Below, piece by piece: positions 14,517-22,248 of a stretch of DNA of 22,477 bases. Both the position numbers and the translations under genes were made by a program. The DNA lies in the IMG/VR virus record IMGVR_UViG_3300010148_000135, positions 1 to 22,477 of that record. One strand, written 5' to 3'. The notes beneath the pieces were generated by a model. The model searched no databases. It was not told the DNA's origin and worked only from the letters and a program-made list of their open reading frames with translations. Within the stretch, counting starts at the first letter, position 1. Each line of letters starts with the position of its first letter. The DNA is from a virus.

Positions 14517-15830
14517 TCAAATTAGATATACAATATCGCTTTTCCCTTTTAGGGTATCCATGGCTTCCTTTCTAAGAATGTCGTATTTTTCTTTAGTGGA
14601 GATGTTAGCCCCTGTTTCTGTAATTAAAATGCTTTGGTCGTCATGTCGTATAATTTCTGCGGCAACTAATTTTGTGGCCGCTTCGTGAACTGCGGCTGGA
14701 ACCCGATTATTACCTGCAATGTAGGTGACAAACACAGAATTGCGAGTATGGTAGGGATAATCTTGTAAAAAGAAAACTCTTCCTTCTTCATTTAATACCC
14801 AATAGTCGCCAGTTCTTTTCATGTCCTCACTACTCGTAAAAGAAGATAACGAACAAACGCTCGGTATTTCATCCGTAGTAGTAAAGGTCAAGGTATTGGT
14901 AGCACTTGTAGTTGCACTGGCACTTAACTCTAAAGTAGTTGAGTTTGTGATGGAAGCAATTGTAGCATTGGTCGGAATACCAGTTCCAGAAACAACCATT
15001 CCTACAGACAACTTGCTTGAATCTGCAACTGTTAATGTGGCATCAGTATTGGCCGTTGTGCATGATTGTTTGATAGTGGCTTTAATAATACACTCGGAAC
15101 CGTCGTCTCCCGAAAGGAGAGAGGATATGAGGACACTGGACCCCTTTCCCTCCTCCTTTTGAGCATAGAAAAAATCCGATATGTCGAGAGAGTCCCCTGT
15201 GTCTTGTAGAGCCTTGGGACTGAATGCCTTTGTATATTTGTGCGTACTGGGGAACTCTTCGTTCACTAATGAGACTATTTCACTTGCAGTGGTCTTTTTT
15301 CCATATGCTGTGCAAAATTCATCGGACCCTAATGCTGTCCCGACTCCGCTTTCTGCCACTAATTCAAAAGAGGCCCCACTATTAGGCAACTGTAAGATAA
15401 TAGAATGCATGTCTCTATAATTTTCAAGAAGGTTAATTGAGCCTTGAGCAGAAGCAAGTTCCTTATATCCACTACCCGACCAAACTTGTAAAGATACAAT
15501 CTTTTGAACTTTCATCATTCTTAACTGAATAAACCCAACATATCCTCCAAAAAGCGTCATTCCGGGCCTATTGGTGTATTCAAAGTTATGAACTTCTTTT
15601 TTAGTAATGATTGGTCTATATGACCTTTTTAGTTTATCATCTACAATACCTTCTACTCTCTTAATAATACTCCCTACTTGCGCTCTTGTAGGATAAGTAT
15701 TGCTTGTATCAAAATGTGGCAATTGTAATAAGTTCGCTACTTCTTTGTAGTCCGTGTAGAATCCAAAACCATCGCTATATTTAGGTTCAGCAGTTGGTTG
15801 AAAGTCACTTGGGGAATTGGTAATTGACAC
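14517..15830 (-). CDS. Head-tail connector (gp6-like adaptor) with inserted beta domain
   Basis: The start chosen is GTG 15830, eight bases after GGAGG, rather than ATG 15845, which would lie upstream of that site. The product has 437 residues. The N-terminal helices (about 25-80) and the C-terminal segment FVTYIAGNNRVPAAVHEAAT with the following helix (about 367-400) match HK97 gp6-type adaptors, where a GN-x-x-VP turn leads into an Ala-rich helix. About residues 253-319 form a separate Thr/Ser-rich beta unit with TLTVADSSKLSVGMVVSGTG and LELSASAT, a module found in many virion proteins of marine phages. Adaptors are usually 100-200 residues, so this is an enlarged, probably decorated version. 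It sits between head genes and tail genes, as expected for a neck protein. Confidence 0.65.
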   Translation of the reverse strand: MSITNSPSDFQPTAEPKYSDGFGFYTDYKEVANLLQLPHFDTSNTYPTRAQVGSIIKRVEGIVDDKLKRSYRPIITKKEVHNFEYTNRPGMTLFGGYVGFIQLRMMKVQKIVSLQVWSGSGYKELASAQGSINLLENYRDMHSIILQLPNSGASFELVAESGVGTALGSDEFCTAYGKKTTASEIVSLVNEEFPSTHKYTKAFSPKALQDTGDSLDISDFFYAQKEEGKGSSVLISSLLSGDDGSECIIKATIKQSCTTANTDATLTVADSSKLSVGMVVSGTGIPTNATIASITNSTTLELSASATTSATNTLTFTTTDEIPSVCSLSSFTSSEDMKRTGDYWVLNEEGRVFFLQDYPYHTRNSVFVTYIAGNNRVPAAVHEAATKLVAAEIIRHDDQSILITETGANISTKEKYDILRKEAMDTLKGKSDIVYLI

Positions 15831-15831
15831 A

Positions 15832-17184
15832 TTAAATTCCTCCATTAATACCGTAGGCTTCTAAATACTCTACTTTTGTTTTGATTTCATTTAAGTGGTC
15901 ATTCATCTTATCTTTTTTAACTTGACCTGCTTTAGAATAATAACTGAAATCAAAAGAACCAACTTGGTGTTCATCTTCCTTTACTCCGAGAGGGACATTT
16001 CTAAAGGCTTTTTGTAGTTGTGCGTTCTTTTCCGATATAGATGCTTTAGAATAGTCTGCTTTTTTAGGAGTCTTAATCTGCCTAATCCTGCAATCTAATT
16101 CTAATAATGAAATGTCATACGGAGAAGATATTCTTTTAACAAGCATTTGTACTTTATCATTTTTAAGGGCCGCATCTTCTATTTCTTTGGGACTAATATA
16201 TTCTTCTAAAATAGTAAGTTCTTTATCTTCATCATCTTCTAAAGGTACATCAGTGCTTGTTAAGTACTCTACAAATTCTTTTTCGATATATTCTGCCGTA
16301 ATGTGGCCAAGTACTTCTGTTAAATCTATTGGAATTGTGTATCTTGTCACGCTAACCTTAATGTTCGATTCTACACCAGTGGTATAGGTTGCTCCAGCAG
16401 GGACAAAGCCCCCGCTTCTTATACCCGCTTTCCTAATTTGCTTAACATACCAATCAGTAATCAACGGCGCAGTATTAAATATGCCTTTATTTTCTGGAAT
16501 TTCAATAAGCAATTCAGTGCCTTTTAATCCTACAAATGCCATTCCAAGAGTCACTCCTTCCAAAATAGTAGATGTTTTTGTAATGTATTCTTTCCTATCC
16601 TTTCTATTCAATTTACCAAGAATCTCTTTACTCAATAAAAGCCTTACATTTTTTGGAATCTTAATAGTGACTTCTAAAGTAATGCCACCTGTGCTTTCTG
16701 CAAAGATGGGGGCCAACGCATTATCTTTAACAAATTCAGAAAAATCTAATTTAGGCATCTTAGCATCGTCAATGTCTCTACCAAATTTTAATGATGTTGC
16801 CCCAATTAACTCATAAAACTTTTTAGTATCAGTAAATACTTCATATAAGGAAGTCTCTCTTGCAAAGGCATCTTTCTCATCAGCAGACACAGTACTGCCA
16901 TCGGGGGCAATATAATCACTCCAAGCATCTCCATCTGCCTTGTATGCCTTGTATGAAGTATCTTTATCTTTAAGCACTTCTTTTAAAAGAGAAGACAGGT
17001 TTTCTCTAATAGGGCTTTCTCTATCTGTTCCCCTAACATCTCTCATAAGAGTTTGGAGGTCGTCTCTAAATCCCTGCCTGTCTTCCTCTTCGGACAAAAA
17101 TTCTACAAGTTTGCCCCTCATAGTGGGTTTGTCGTCGGGAAAAGCAAAATTATTGCCACCAAAACGAAAGGCTACTTGCTCCAA
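15832..17184 (-). CDS. Unknown 450-residue late protein
   Basis: The start is TTG 17184, eight bases after GAGG; no ATG is better placed. The product is soluble, charged, and mixed alpha/beta, without signal peptide or membrane segment. The N-terminal 160 residues are helical and acidic (LVEFLSEEEDRQGFRDDLQT). A middle beta-rich part has GITLEVTIKIPKNVRLLLSKE and LGMAFVGLKGTELLIEIPEN. The last 100 residues are helical again and end EYLEAYGINGG. I recognise no family. The gene overlaps none of its neighbours but is separated by only a base or so from the adaptor gene, and its TTG start lies within the ribosome-site spacing of the previous gene's end, so it is part of the same operon. A virion component or an assembly factor are both possible. 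Confidence 0.7.
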   Translation of the reverse strand: MEQVAFRFGGNNFAFPDDKPTMRGKLVEFLSEEEDRQGFRDDLQTLMRDVRGTDRESPIRENLSSLLKEVLKDKDTSYKAYKADGDAWSDYIAPDGSTVSADEKDAFARETSLYEVFTDTKKFYELIGATSLKFGRDIDDAKMPKLDFSEFVKDNALAPIFAESTGGITLEVTIKIPKNVRLLLSKEILGKLNRKDRKEYITKTSTILEGVTLGMAFVGLKGTELLIEIPENKGIFNTAPLITDWYVKQIRKAGIRSGGFVPAGATYTTGVESNIKVSVTRYTIPIDLTEVLGHITAEYIEKEFVEYLTSTDVPLEDDEDKELTILEEYISPKEIEDAALKNDKVQMLVKRISSPYDISLLELDCRIRQIKTPKKADYSKASISEKNAQLQKAFRNVPLGVKEDEHQVGSFDFSYYSKAGQVKKDKMNDHLNEIKTKVEYLEAYGINGGI

Positions 17185-17194
17185 TTAAATCGCC

Positions 17195-17839
17195 TCACAT
17201 TAACCATTTAGCCCAAGCCGCTCCTTTTTGAATGGCTGAACCCAAGTGTAATCCACTTGAAGGAGGCTCATAACTCATTTGCCCAGTTTGCTGGTCAATC
17301 CAGTATGGGCGACCATATCCATCTTGACCGTTTGGAGGGATGGGGTAGCCTGTTCCATTTTGAGTAGCCCCTTGCATTTGTTGATACTGTTGCATATTTC
17401 CTGTGACTCCCGCAAGAGCGGCAACTGCCGTTGGTTGAACACCGCCACCAAAGCCTTGGGATTCGAGGTATTGTTGCTTTGCCATTTTTCTTTGATTGAT
17501 AACTTCTGTGTTTAAAGCACTCTCTAAGACTTTAGAAATATCAACCTCTATATTTTCTTGGGTAATCTTTTCGTATTCTCGAAGACATTCTTGATTTAAA
17601 GTAATGACTCCCCCATTTGTAGTGAATGTAAGTTTGGATAGCATTTCCGAAACAACTCTTTTTGTCACATCTTCCATTAGCACTTCAAGAGAAGACATGA
17701 ATGATTGGCCATGATATTGGAAAAACTCTTCAACATGGTTATCTTGTAAAGAAAGTAGGTTGTTCACTGTTTTGAATTGCGTATCGTTCTGCGCCTGTAC
17801 TGCGCCCATTACTGCTTTATTGCTTGTTCCAAAAACCAT
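17195..17839 (-). CDS. Unknown protein with Gln/Gly-rich linker and half-WW-like motif
   Basis: A 214-residue protein from ATG 17839 with a strong GGAGG site. Residues 20-125 are helical and amphipathic (FKTVNNLLSLQDNHVEEFFQ, MSSLEVLMEDVTKRVVSEML), likely coiled coil. Residues 128-165 are a Gly/Gln-rich linker. Residues 166-193 read PIPPNG then GYGRPYWIDQQTGQMSYEPP, similar to the second half of a WW domain (GRPYYVDHNT-x-x-T-x-W-x-x-P), but the first Trp is absent and the last Trp position is Tyr. The end (residues 197-214) is a short amphipathic helix with two Trp. It follows the Zn-finger-like gene by 2 bases. Function unknown; a protein-protein adaptor is a guess. Confidence 0.65.
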   Translation of the reverse strand: MVFGTSNKAVMGAVQAQNDTQFKTVNNLLSLQDNHVEEFFQYHGQSFMSSLEVLMEDVTKRVVSEMLSKLTFTTNGGVITLNQECLREYEKITQENIEVDISKVLESALNTEVINQRKMAKQQYLESQGFGGGVQPTAVAALAGVTGNMQQYQQMQGATQNGTGYPIPPNGQDGYGRPYWIDQQTGQMSYEPPSSGLHLGSAIQKGAAWAKWLM

Positions 17840-17841
17840 GT

Positions 17842-18531
17842 TTATTCCTCCAAGTCTCCTTTGCTATCCGTCTCCGGCGTCGGCCTATTGACTTTCACTC
17901 CTTCGTGTATCATCAAGTAGTTCAACCTATCTGTTAATATGTTGATTTCCCCGACAATTTCAATCGACTCGTTGGTAGCCGACCTATTATCACGCAGGGT
18001 GGGAGGTTTAATAAAATAACCTGCGGCAGTCAAAGAAGAAATGTCTTGTTTGCTTAATGAAGTTAGTGGCCCTCCTTTCAAAATATTAGGCATTTTTCTC
18101 TTAAACCCTTTATATTCCAACCCATGTTTTTGTGCCATAATCTGCTGTTCTAACACTTCTAATTGATGCCAAATAGAAGCATGCTTAGGGCAGTATGTTC
18201 CCATCAGTGGTCTTCCTTTGACTACCTTATCGAGAGGCATAGGTGGTCGTAAATAGTCTCCTTGTTCCCAAATATGATGGAAGCCACAAACTACGCACCT
18301 ATCTCTTAGATTGAATTTTTTACCATACTTGATAAAAAGAAATTTTTTAGGTTCTGCTTGTAAAACCTTAATAAATTCTTTTTTCTGTTTTGCTGGCTTA
18401 ACCGAAATGGGTCTAAATTCCATAACTGGCCCTGTTGTTCTTGCTTGCTGAATTGGACTTAAAGTAGGATTAAACGAATGTTGCGGTCCTAAGTTCTGCC
18501 CTATAATTTGTTGCTCGTACATAATATTCAT
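17842..18531 (-). CDS. Zn-finger-like protein of unknown function
   Basis: A 229-residue protein. ATG 18531 is given; the in-frame ATG at 18522 is an alternative with better spacing to AGAG. The N-terminal 45 residues are Gln/Pro-rich and probably disordered. A basic segment (FIKYGKKFNLRDRC) leads to a putative zinc site with C79-x2-C82 and, about 31 residues later, C114-x2-H117 (YCPKH), with H85 and H86 near by. After it a helix LEVLEQQIMAQKHG and a basic loop follow, and the protein ends with a helix and an acidic tail. Four metal ligands in this CxxC...CxxH arrangement are typical of small treble-clef or zinc-ribbon modules. It sits directly behind the GTPase gene, so it may act with it, but this is inference. 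Confidence 0.65.
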   Translation of the reverse strand: MNIMYEQQIIGQNLGPQHSFNPTLSPIQQARTTGPVMEFRPISVKPAKQKKEFIKVLQAEPKKFLFIKYGKKFNLRDRCVVCGFHHIWEQGDYLRPPMPLDKVVKGRPLMGTYCPKHASIWHQLEVLEQQIMAQKHGLEYKGFKRKMPNILKGGPLTSLSKQDISSLTAAGYFIKPPTLRDNRSATNESIEIVGEINILTDRLNYLMIHEGVKVNRPTPETDSKGDLEE

Positions 18532-18536
18532 CTCTT

Positions 18537-19199
18537 TCAGTAGTCTTTTATCATGGTCACTATCCCTTTATACACCATTTCCGAATCGGATTTTGCAGAA
18601 ACAATGTATTTAAAACAAGGTATTCCCTTATCATTTAATTTTCTCATCCCATATGAAAAGGGTTCAAAGATAGAATGTTTAGTAATTTCAACATCTTCTT
18701 TGTACTTTTCTCCCCAAATATCATATTTATTAGCCCAAATAGATACTGCTAAAGGGTAATCGGATTCTTTTTTTCTTTTACCAGTAGACCAAAGATTAGA
18801 GGTAATGGTATCTATAAGAAACTTCCAAGCAACTTGATGGTCTAAATTAGAAGTGTTATCTAAATGTCTATGGTCAATCATAAAGATAATATATTTTGGT
18901 CTTCTCTTAATCATATCTTTTTCCCATTCCTTCCAATATATTGCTTCTCCTCCAATATCGGCTGATTTTATAGTGTGGGATTCTCCATCAATTTTAATGG
19001 TCTTTCGAGAGGCACTTGCTCTTCCAATAGTTCTTTCATTGACTTGCGGTACTTCTCCTCTTGTTCTAAGTTGATGGCTTAATGTTGTTTTACCAACCAT
19101 TGTTGCACCATATACTCCGTAATTGATAGCATGAATCTTCTTATAGAATCCTATTACTGCTTCCCCTACCAGTATGGCAAAGCCTGTCATTAAAGACAT
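18537..19199 (-). CDS. Ras/Arf-type small GTPase with hydrophobic N-terminal helix
   Basis: A 220-residue protein starting at ATG 19199, seven bases after GGAGG. All five G motifs are visible in order: G1 P-loop GATMVGKTT (G31, G36-K37-T38), G2 T57 in ERTIGR, G3 DIGGE (D81-G84), G4 NKYD (157-160) and G5 SAK (201-203). The TIG around T57 and DIGG instead of DTAG are Arf/Sar/Rab-like features. Residues 4-19 (TGFAILVGEAVIGFY) form a hydrophobic helix before the G domain, comparable with the membrane-binding N-terminal helix of Arf proteins. A longer helix insert with basic residues lies before the G4 motif (about 134-147). Two small membrane-protein genes are immediately upstream. Established knowledge: small GTPases switch by GTP binding and hydrolysis. 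A role in virion assembly, DNA delivery or membrane remodelling is only inferred. Confidence 0.88.
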   Translation of the reverse strand: MSLMTGFAILVGEAVIGFYKKIHAINYGVYGATMVGKTTLSHQLRTRGEVPQVNERTIGRASASRKTIKIDGESHTIKSADIGGEAIYWKEWEKDMIKRRPKYIIFMIDHRHLDNTSNLDHQVAWKFLIDTITSNLWSTGKRKKESDYPLAVSIWANKYDIWGEKYKEDVEITKHSIFEPFSYGMRKLNDKGIPCFKYIVSAKSDSEMVYKGIVTMIKDY

Positions 19200-19421
19200 T
19201 TAATGGCCTCCAAATATAGATTTGACTAACCCAATTATCCAACCCATGATGTTTATGTCAAAAACACCCATAATATTTCCAATGAGTAATGCTGATAATG
19301 TGGCACAACTGCCCCAAAACCATGCTCTCATCTTAATAAAAAACAAATCAGCAGAATGCGCCCTTTGTTGATTGTAGGCATAATCCGAATCGGAAAAACC
19401 CATTAAATCTCCAAAGACCAT
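19200..19421 (-). CDS. Small membrane protein (73 aa)
   Basis: Starts at ATG 19421 with GAGGTG six bases upstream and ends one base before the GTPase start, so the two genes are probably translationally coupled. Residues 1-30 are polar (MVFGDLMGFSDSDYAYNQQR). Residues 33-54 form a clear transmembrane segment (AWFWGSCATLSALLIGNIMG), and residues 56-70 (INIMGWIIGLVKSIF) a second short hydrophobic or amphipathic segment. Holin-like size and topology are possible, but the gene is in the middle of the structural module and next to a second membrane protein and a GTPase, so a membrane anchor or partner of the GTPase is an equally good guess. Confidence 0.7.
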   Translation of the reverse strand: MVFGDLMGFSDSDYAYNQQRAHSADLFFIKMRAWFWGSCATLSALLIGNIMGVFDINIMGWIIGLVKSIFGGH

Positions 19422-19431
19422 TTAGCGCACC

Positions 19432-19821
19432 TCATTGTAATGTGGCTAAAAATTCACTTCCGACTACGCTGTTCTCTTCTTCTTGTAGGGGTGGAGTATA
19501 AGAAAAAGTGGTGTTATATTGCTTTGCACTCTCTCTCATCTTTTGACGCTGTTGCTCATCTCTTGCTTTTCTTTCCCAAAAAGCCGCAATCTTTCTGTCA
19601 AGTAGCCACATTTCAATTCGGTCATTTAGGGCTAAATCAAAAACTGCTTTCATAACCATAATGGCCCCAATGGTTCCCAACCCGAATAGGAAAGAATGTG
19701 CTAATGGCCCATAAGGGAACCCTGTTCCGAACTGTGCATAAGAAAACACATTCGTACCGCTCATTACTCCCACAAATAGGATGGTCATAACCAACCGTGT
19801 GTCTTGATTCAATGCCGCCAA
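19432..19821 (-). CDS. Membrane protein with two TM helices and charged tail (129 aa)
   Basis: The start is TTG 19821, five bases after GAGGTGA. Transmembrane segment 1 is about residues 10-26 (LVMTILFVGVMSGTNVF) and segment 2 about 40-62 (AHSFLFGLGTIGAIMVMKAV). The loop between them is Gly/Pro-rich. Residues 67-110 are strongly charged (RIEMWLLDRKIAAFWERK, ARDEQQRQKMRES) and probably cytoplasmic and helical. The last 20 residues are acidic and polar. It lies 10 bases before the 73-residue membrane protein and near the GTPase, as part of a membrane-oriented gene group in the operon. I know no family for it. Confidence 0.7.
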   Translation of the reverse strand: MAALNQDTRLVMTILFVGVMSGTNVFSYAQFGTGFPYGPLAHSFLFGLGTIGAIMVMKAVFDLALNDRIEMWLLDRKIAAFWERKARDEQQRQKMRESAKQYNTTFSYTPPLQEEENSVVGSEFLATLQ

Positions 19822-20913: not shown

Positions 20914-22248
20914 TCACTTTAGGTTGGTCATTTTGCCTTGACCCTTGAAGTACGAACAGCCGACTTCCGCAATAGTGCGGTACAATGCTCGGTTTCCGAG
21001 TTGTCCGACACCGAATGGGTTGCCGTTGCTAATACCATCTTCGAAGTATTGTGTAGGCTTCATAACAGCAAGCCATAGATGGTCAGTGTCAAGAACAAGC
21101 ATATCGGAGATAGTTCCCGAATCAGCAGAAGTGCTTTGCATTGAGATAACTGGAATCAATGGAATGTCGTAGTAGGTTGCCACACGGAAACCAACTTCTG
21201 CACCCTTAACACCACGAACACCGTTCACAGTAGGAACAATTTCCTTTCGGTCCATAAATCGCTCTTGGCTTTGTAGAAGGTCCGATAGAGTTTGTAGTGT
21301 GTCGTATCCTGTTAGAATGACCTTTGGGGAACCGCCATTTTCACGGAGTTCTCTCAAAAGTTTGTTCATAAGTGTTAGCGTAAATGGTCGAGAATCGCCA
21401 CTTGCATATCCGTCACCATCTTCAACAACAGCATCAAGGAAAGATGCACTGTCACGGTTAGTACCATAGATGTGGTATGCTGTGCTAATGTCACCTGTGA
21501 TTGAACTCACAGGGAAGTTATCAGTATCCATTTGGTCAAGTTCTGCGTTAGAGGAAATAACCTTGTAAAGAGAAGTGTAGTTTCTTTCAATGTTGACAGA
21601 AGCGTTGCTCTTATCAGTATCCAAATAGGCTTCCAAAGGAGAAACAAGCATCAAGTTCTGCGATTCTGCGTGGTGCTTACCCATATCTTCTCGCATTTGT
21701 GCTCTAATGTCACCAATACCGTCGTCAATTTGAGCCATTTCCATAGCAAGTTCGCTAAAGTCGAACTGATGTGCAATGGTCTTAGGACTCATAAAGAGAG
21801 TCGAGTATTCCGGTGCAATAGCAATTAAGCCATCTCCACTTGTTGAAAGGGAAGCATTTTCTGGAACGCCACCAATACTGTCAAGTCGAGGTGCATCAGT
21901 ACCAACCAAATCAGTACCGGTTCGGGTAAAGGCGTGTGCGTTTCCACTGCCACCAGCAGGTCGCTTGGAAAGAACTCTCCAACCGCTTGATGTGTAGGGT
22001 CTCTTTGACATAACCGACAAAGCATTGACTTCTCGGTTTAGCATTGACCAAACCTTTTGTCCGTAAAGGACATTGTAGAGATTACCGGCAATACCGGAAG
22101 TTGCGGAAGTTTGTGTAGCCGCATCATGGCCACCATGAATACCGGTGACTGCACCGGCTGTTTTGAGAAGCATGTTTGTGCTTCCACTCAAGTTCATTCC
22201 GTAGGTTTGGGCTTCTAAGTCTGCAATTGTGTTAATATATCCTGTCAT
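20914..22248 (-). CDS. HK97-fold major capsid protein
   Basis: A 444-residue protein from ATG 22248 with GAGGTGA ahead of it; the ribosome site overlaps the stop of the scaffold-like gene. The pattern is that of an HK97-fold capsid protein: an N-terminal arm, a helix-rich region (QFDFSELAMEMAQIDDGIGD), a long P-domain helix with HHAESQNLMLVSP, an A-domain stretch SPKVILTGYDTLQTLSDLLQ, and a C-terminal beta part with YYDIPLIPVI, MLVLDTDHLWLAVM and LYRTIAEVGCSYF. No delta domain is obvious because a separate helical scaffold-like gene precedes it. The gene order scaffold-capsid-decoration is canonical. I do not see the residues needed for HK97-type cross-linking with confidence. Confidence 0.82.
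   Translation of the reverse strand: MTGYINTIADLEAQTYGMNLSGSTNMLLKTAGAVTGIHGGHDAATQTSATSGIAGNLYNVLYGQKVWSMLNREVNALSVMSKRPYTSSGWRVLSKRPAGGSGNAHAFTRTGTDLVGTDAPRLDSIGGVPENASLSTSGDGLIAIAPEYSTLFMSPKTIAHQFDFSELAMEMAQIDDGIGDIRAQMREDMGKHHAESQNLMLVSPLEAYLDTDKSNASVNIERNYTSLYKVISSNAELDQMDTDNFPVSSITGDISTAYHIYGTNRDSASFLDAVVEDGDGYASGDSRPFTLTLMNKLLRELRENGGSPKVILTGYDTLQTLSDLLQSQERFMDRKEIVPTVNGVRGVKGAEVGFRVATYYDIPLIPVISMQSTSADSGTISDMLVLDTDHLWLAVMKPTQYFEDGISNGNPFGVGQLGNRALYRTIAEVGCSYFKGQGKMTNLK

Follow-up and report, generated by a model that had tools for sequence, protein, structure and literature searches.

The window, by which we mean the whole analysed stretch of 22,477 nucleotides, is a 22-kb fragment filed as IMGVR_UViG_3300010148_000135, and it encodes a Ras-superfamily small GTPase among virion genes (Table 1). 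The GTPase gene stands in a compact block of five, between the major capsid gene upstream and the head gene g442 downstream. Its start codon abuts the stop codon of the preceding gene, a Shine-Dalgarno sequence lies just ahead of it, and the next gene begins 5 nt past its stop. The tight coupling and the strong ribosome site pointed out in the initial annotation of this DNA are thus borne out, as is the placement of the gene between head and neck genes, since the homologue of g442 in the haloviruses HVTV-1 and HCTV-1 stands shortly ahead of the tail-tube gene. In the comparison with these two viruses, the capsid, g442, tail-tube and tail-assembly-chaperone genes align, framing the interval. 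More than 300 relatives of the GTPase were confirmed in one IMG/VR scan, so its gene is not a chance open reading frame.

Table 1. Features of the GTPase locus, from the capsid gene downstream (TM, transmembrane).
Feature	Position	Strand	Basis
Major capsid protein (HK97/SU10-like), upstream boundary	20914..22248	-	phrog_24667 E 6.7e-27, SU10_MCP E 8e-8
g129, 129 aa, two TM segments and charged C-terminal tail	19432..19821	-	hydropathy, conservation
g73, 73 aa, one TM segment, invariant RAHSAD	19200..19421	-	hydropathy, alignment
Shine-Dalgarno GGAGG, 7 nt before GTPase ATG	19207..19211	-	sequence inspection
Ras-superfamily small GTPase, 220 aa	18537..19199	-	ORF, profiles, AF2 model, Foldseek, motif conservation
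N-terminal hydrophobic/amphipathic helix, residues 2-22, invariant Glu13	19134..19196	-	alignment, AF2 model, hydropathy
G1 P-loop GATMVGKTT, residues 31-39	19083..19109	-	GxxxxGKTT invariant 187/187
G2/switch I, R56-T57-I-G59	19023..19034	-	RTxG 187/187; R56 candidate intrinsic arginine finger
G3/switch II, D81-I-G-G-E85	18945..18959	-	DxGG[EQ] 187/187
G4 guanine-specificity motif NKYD, residues 157-160	18720..18731	-	NKxD 187/187
G5 SAK, residues 201-203	18591..18599	-	187/187
g229, 229 aa, soluble, invariant CxxCG...TYCxKH (zinc-ribbon-like)	17842..18531	-	alignment
g214, 214 aa, soluble, conserved helical N half, W-rich C-terminus	17195..17839	-	alignment; weak WW-domain match
g450, left out of block, between block and g442	15832..17184	-	length in relatives 373-1326 aa
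g442, conserved head gene, downstream boundary	14517..15845	-	homologue of HVTV-1 gene 125

The five G motifs read as intact in the initial annotation (G31-x4-GKT, T57, DIGG, NKYD and SAK) were found at the residues assigned to them, and all are invariant among 187 distinct GTPase homologues. With regard to the DxxGQ form of G3, DxGG is invariant and the residue that follows (position 85) is Glu in 142 sequences and Gln in 45, with nothing else occurring there; the window has Glu. The hydrophobic N-terminal helix that had been described ahead of the G domain is likewise predicted here; it is moderately amphipathic across the family (18-mer H 0.38, muH 0.32; muH range 0.24-0.49) and borderline in hydropathy, and the protein has no Gly2 for myristoylation.

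Taken alone, the window protein matched GTPase models below the curated cut-offs (Pfam, TIGR00231), although 70 of 70 diverse members match NCBIfam TIGR00231 (small_GTP) at E≤0.1 (best 1.8e-7), and for this reason we class it, judging by its sequence, as a divergent new family inside the Ras superfamily. Among the same 70 members the Pfam models matched were MMR_HSR1 (66), SRPRB (50), Ras (36) and Arf (23), with Roc also frequent. AlphaFold2 run on the single window sequence gave a pLDDT of 39.5, and the model used was instead computed on the 70-sequence alignment; it has a pLDDT of 75, with low confidence in the P-loop region, and shows the canonical Ras-like order a0-b1-a1-b2-b3-a2-b4-a3-b5-a4-b6-a5, the extra helix of residues 2-22 preceding the core. 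Against the PDB, Foldseek returned Rab, Ras and G-alpha proteins with E from 1e-8 to 1e-7, the target TM reaching 0.73 with Rab5c. Among predicted viral structures the best matches were Ras/Rab/Ran proteins of giant viruses that infect eukaryotes, and no entry among the 50 matches listed is named as a virus of prokaryotes. A PHROG search gave no family covering the GTPase. Profiles, fold and motif conservation establish the protein as a GTPase of the Ras superfamily. Two outcomes that the initial annotation had named as speaking against this identity did not arise: the Ras fold was obtained (AF2, Foldseek), and no relative was found in the kinase or AAA families. Any other P-loop family was rejected, as the guanine motifs G4 and G5 are invariant and the Sak4-like and guanylate-kinase PHROG matches reach only E 0.015-0.03. 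The label "Arf/Ras-like" holds as far as the superfamily is concerned, and the profiles do not narrow it further: RT[VI]G and DxGG[EQ] have an Arf-like look to the eye, but pairwise hhalign gave E 2.9e-6 for HRas versus 9e-4 for Arf1, with no preference for Arf. An Arf-specific origin is not supported by this profile comparison, nor by the rank of Arf (PF00025), which comes only fifth when Pfam families are ordered by how many members they match.

The GTPase is the most conserved among 14 proteins compared, and its dN/dS of 0.053 is the lowest of seven genes (capsid 0.162; five neighbours 0.09-0.14); these values were estimated by simple counting where dS is high, and serve only to rank the genes. 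Invariant G motifs, low dN/dS and top conservation together say, as far as a pattern of constraint can, that a catalytic function is in use.

Between the capsid gene and g442, the block of five is complete in 150 of 164 distinct loci, absent in 14 and partial in none, numbers that count distinct capsid proteins rather than independent evolutionary events, many of the loci having been sampled by the same ocean surveys. The search of virus contigs for the same gene order, suggested with the initial annotation, thus recovers one arrangement, g129, g73, GTPase, g229 and g214, fixed in all 150. The 14 loci that lack it belong to haloviruses and to a marine sister clade, the latter with a gene for a protein of about 1005 aa in the interval; no relation was found between this protein and g450, and the proposed homology of the two was dropped. 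A single change on the capsid tree (branch support moderate, 69/83) suffices to explain the distribution, which implies a single gain (or a single loss) of the block and its retention ever since. Long genomes of the block clades carry exactly one GTPase (12/12), and five others carry none.

Two hydrophobic peaks are present in g129 in all 149 sequences and one in g73 in 148 of 153, while g229 and g214 have no hydrophobic segments. The pair CxxCG and GTYCxKH in g229 is a pattern typical of a zinc ribbon. Family searches with g129, g73, g229 and g214 gave no match to any family of known function. A conserved C-terminal stretch of g214, NPYWIDPxTGQxTYxPP, matches the WW domain weakly (E 0.02-0.06), which could be chance. 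Given the hydrophobic segments of g129 and g73 and the hydrophobic-to-amphipathic helix of the GTPase, membrane contact is likely for three of the five proteins of the block. The magrovirus source of the DNA (see below), the block with its two membrane proteins and the top constraint of the GTPase had escaped the initial annotation.

The window is a magrovirus fragment, an assignment that rests on its relatives, whose family-B DNA polymerase (PolB), chaperonin and Druskaviridae-related capsid match the published descriptions. Magroviruses, order Magrovirales, are described as tailed viruses associated with marine Poseidoniales archaea (PMC12999244, PMC10768690), and it is from these papers that we take the host to be Poseidoniales. 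The traits of the order (a genome of about 90-110 kb, PolB and a Druskaviridae-related HK97-fold capsid) were found on the relatives: IMG/VR contigs of up to 92-103 kb carry close GTPase relatives, their PolB is split into two frames, the long contigs tested in the window's own clade encode a GroEL/thermosome-family chaperonin, and the only annotated relatives of the capsid protein are the haloviruses HVTV-1, HCTV-1, HCTV-5 and kin (Druskaviridae). PolB occupies two frames in both GTPase-bearing clades (G001-G021) and one frame in the GTPase-less sister clade (G022, G023, G028) and HVTV-1, a second trait that tracks the same clade division as GTPase presence or absence. One record of 184,733 bp (IMGVR_UViG_3300021958_000021; loci L067 and L112) has two GTPase genes and two PolB sets and looks like two magrovirus genomes joined. 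A search of cellular genomes for the GTPase matched a single contig, NZMJ01000024.1 (L082), filed in a Maricaulis MAG; its GTPase is 79% identical to that of the window, and the contig is therefore probably a mis-binned magrovirus fragment. No paper naming magrovirus and GTPase together was found in a literature search whose reach did not extend to the key magrovirus papers, so that an earlier annotation is possible.

In relatives, the g73/GTPase and GTPase/g229 junctions behave as hot spots of insertion: most loci, like the window at both junctions, have nothing there (about 0-27 bp), and the rest hold one or two cargo genes. These extra genes form at least 29 unrelated clusters with a common N-terminal M-W-x-x-[ILV]-[LI]-K (e.g., L067:9056-9999, L016:3814-4317, L049:9503-10000, L049:10675-11217 and L065:10675-11139); some appear by eye GNAT-like, nucleotidyltransferase-like or HExxH-like, and one tagged gene lies outside the two junctions (L055:14998-16119). 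The motif occurs within residues 1-20 of 43 of 3403 long ORFs and at residues 61-80 of none, and as the third codon positions vary, selection acts on the tag peptide. Several GTPase genomes and the GTPase-less sister clade have the tag, and ten genomes of the other GTPase clade and the haloviruses do not. A coupling of the GTPase to the tagged genes was rejected, as GTPase-positive genomes (G012-G021) lack the tag and GTPase-negative ones (G022-G024) have it. By analogy with capsid-targeting sequences, the tag is perhaps a targeting signal for packaged or ejected cargo.

Small GTPases that control membranes are seen as a speciality of eukaryotes, to which prokaryotes add scattered relatives. 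The membrane helix, the two co-inherited transmembrane proteins, the zinc-ribbon-like protein and the position in the virion operon suggest to us, with about even confidence, that a catalytically competent GTPase, as predicted here, acts with its four block partners as a membrane-bound GTP switch at the host membrane in late assembly or egress. According to this model, magroviruses would have gained the GTPase once and retained it as a core gene, presumably expressed late with the rest of the block. The N-terminal helix would hold the protein on the inner side of the host's cell membrane, where it would alternate between GTP and GDP in physical contact with four obligate late-operon partners, g129, g73, g229 (probably binding zinc) and g214. 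Once loaded with GTP, it would recruit the membrane complex or open it, and hydrolysis would reset the complex through the Glu or Gln at position 85, perhaps with Arg56 as a built-in arginine finger. The purpose would be to time and shape a late membrane step, either assembly at the membrane or exit by its deformation or permeabilisation. Among the roles proposed in the initial annotation (timing of assembly at the membrane, subversion of host vesicles or membranes, energy use in DNA entry or egress), those at the membrane fit best. Against such a switch, haloviruses and the sister clade get through a tailed-virus cycle lacking all five genes, so the block is no general requirement for assembly or exit; the interval between capsid and connector usually holds genes for virion parts; and the partners fall in no family of known function, the hydropathy of the helix being borderline and g229 and g214 matching neither ArvC nor ArvB. 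A bolder proposal, which we hold only tentatively, is that the block is the virus's own GTPase-driven membrane-remodelling machine, analogous to eukaryotic Arf/Sar and archaeal ArvA and with unrelated partners, by which the particles would bud from, assemble at or exit through the membrane of wild Poseidoniales. If true, this would be the first machine of its kind known from a prokaryotic tailed virus.

The place of the block, between capsid and connector genes in 150/150 loci, is the normal one for virion genes of tailed viruses, and gene 124 of HVTV-1, found in the matching interval, also encodes a small protein with one TM segment. These facts suit a different idea, that the five proteins are carried in the particle, perhaps in its neck or at one vertex, and come into play when another cell is met: the TM proteins would insert into its membrane, and the GTPase would read host GTP and so gate DNA entry. 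Yet TM proteins are unusual in HK97-type heads and we know of no GTPase-like virion part in tailed viruses, and we consider this unlikely. An improbable role, too, is that of a lysis module, with g129 and g73 as a holin-like pair and the GTPase and its Cys/His partner as a permeabilisation timer: the small one- or two-TM proteins with charged tails, the virion operon and the tight coupling would agree with it, but neither g129 nor g73 matches a holin family, the block lies inside the head module and not at its end, and a GTPase timer in phage lysis has no precedent known to us. That the GTPase is a head-assembly chaperone with no membrane function, whose hydrolysis of GTP drives maturation or connector attachment and whose helix binds a capsid protein, accords with the gene neighbourhood and with a constraint stronger than that on the major capsid protein, but is very doubtful given that half of the co-inherited partners, g129 and g73, are predicted to be integral to the membrane.

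The way in which tailed viruses of archaea cross the membrane of their hosts is, to our knowledge, little understood, and this conserved set of five genes is a concrete, testable candidate for the step, for which the single change on the capsid tree and the absence from the sister clade offer a natural control. The GTPase represents a new G-domain family whose Glu/Gln alternation at the catalytic position and possible built-in arginine finger are useful for tracing small-GTPase evolution.

Several known systems resemble the one described here in part. Giant viruses of eukaryotes (Edafosvirus, Harvfovirus, Pithovirus and others) also encode Ras-superfamily GTPases, but these are of eukaryotic Rab/Ras/Ran type, with about 10-20% identity to the magrovirus protein. 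Some accepted prokaryotic small GTPases, those of group 1 Rup, also lack the catalytic Gln after DxxG. Group 1 MglA has an essential intrinsic arginine finger, supplied by the Arg that immediately precedes its G2 Thr (PMC4316618); the viral Arg56 stands in the same place (187/187) and may by analogy work in the same way. The viral G3, however, is DxGG[EQ] and that of MglA is TVPGQ, which places the protein outside MglA group 1, and no roadblock partner (MglB) was recognised among the GTPase neighbours. With Arf/Arl/Sar and SR-beta the viral family shares a membrane helix before the G domain, the DxGG G3, a switch I of the form [R/P]T[VI]G (compared by hand) and weak SRPRB and Arf Pfam matches; it differs in having no Gly2 and in the Glu that replaces the catalytic Gln in about three-quarters of its members.

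The archaeal ArvABC operon comes closer. ArvA is a small GTPase with an amphipathic N-terminal helix, whose deletion in Haloferax volcanii abolishes RNA-bearing vesicles, and the zinc-ribbon protein of its operon is the proposed GAP (PMC10927574). The magrovirus block resembles this system in combining a small GTPase bearing an N-terminal membrane-type helix with a zinc-ribbon neighbour and one more partner within a compact archaeal operon; it differs in being viral and not cellular, in its two TM proteins and in the Pfam matches of its GTPase, spread over MMR_HSR1, Roc, SRPRB, Ras and Arf. The ArvB model (DUF2073), whose gene would stand directly downstream of the GTPase, has no match in the g229 or g214 families at E≤5, and that of ArvC (DUF2072 zinc ribbon), looked for within two genes of the GTPase, does not match g229 despite its CxxC...CxxH pattern. 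Membership in ArvABC was rejected because the viral partners match neither ArvB nor ArvC, and in this comparison, made through the partner models and the GTPase helix rather than the ArvA sequence, ArvABC appears as the nearest functional analogue of the magrovirus block.
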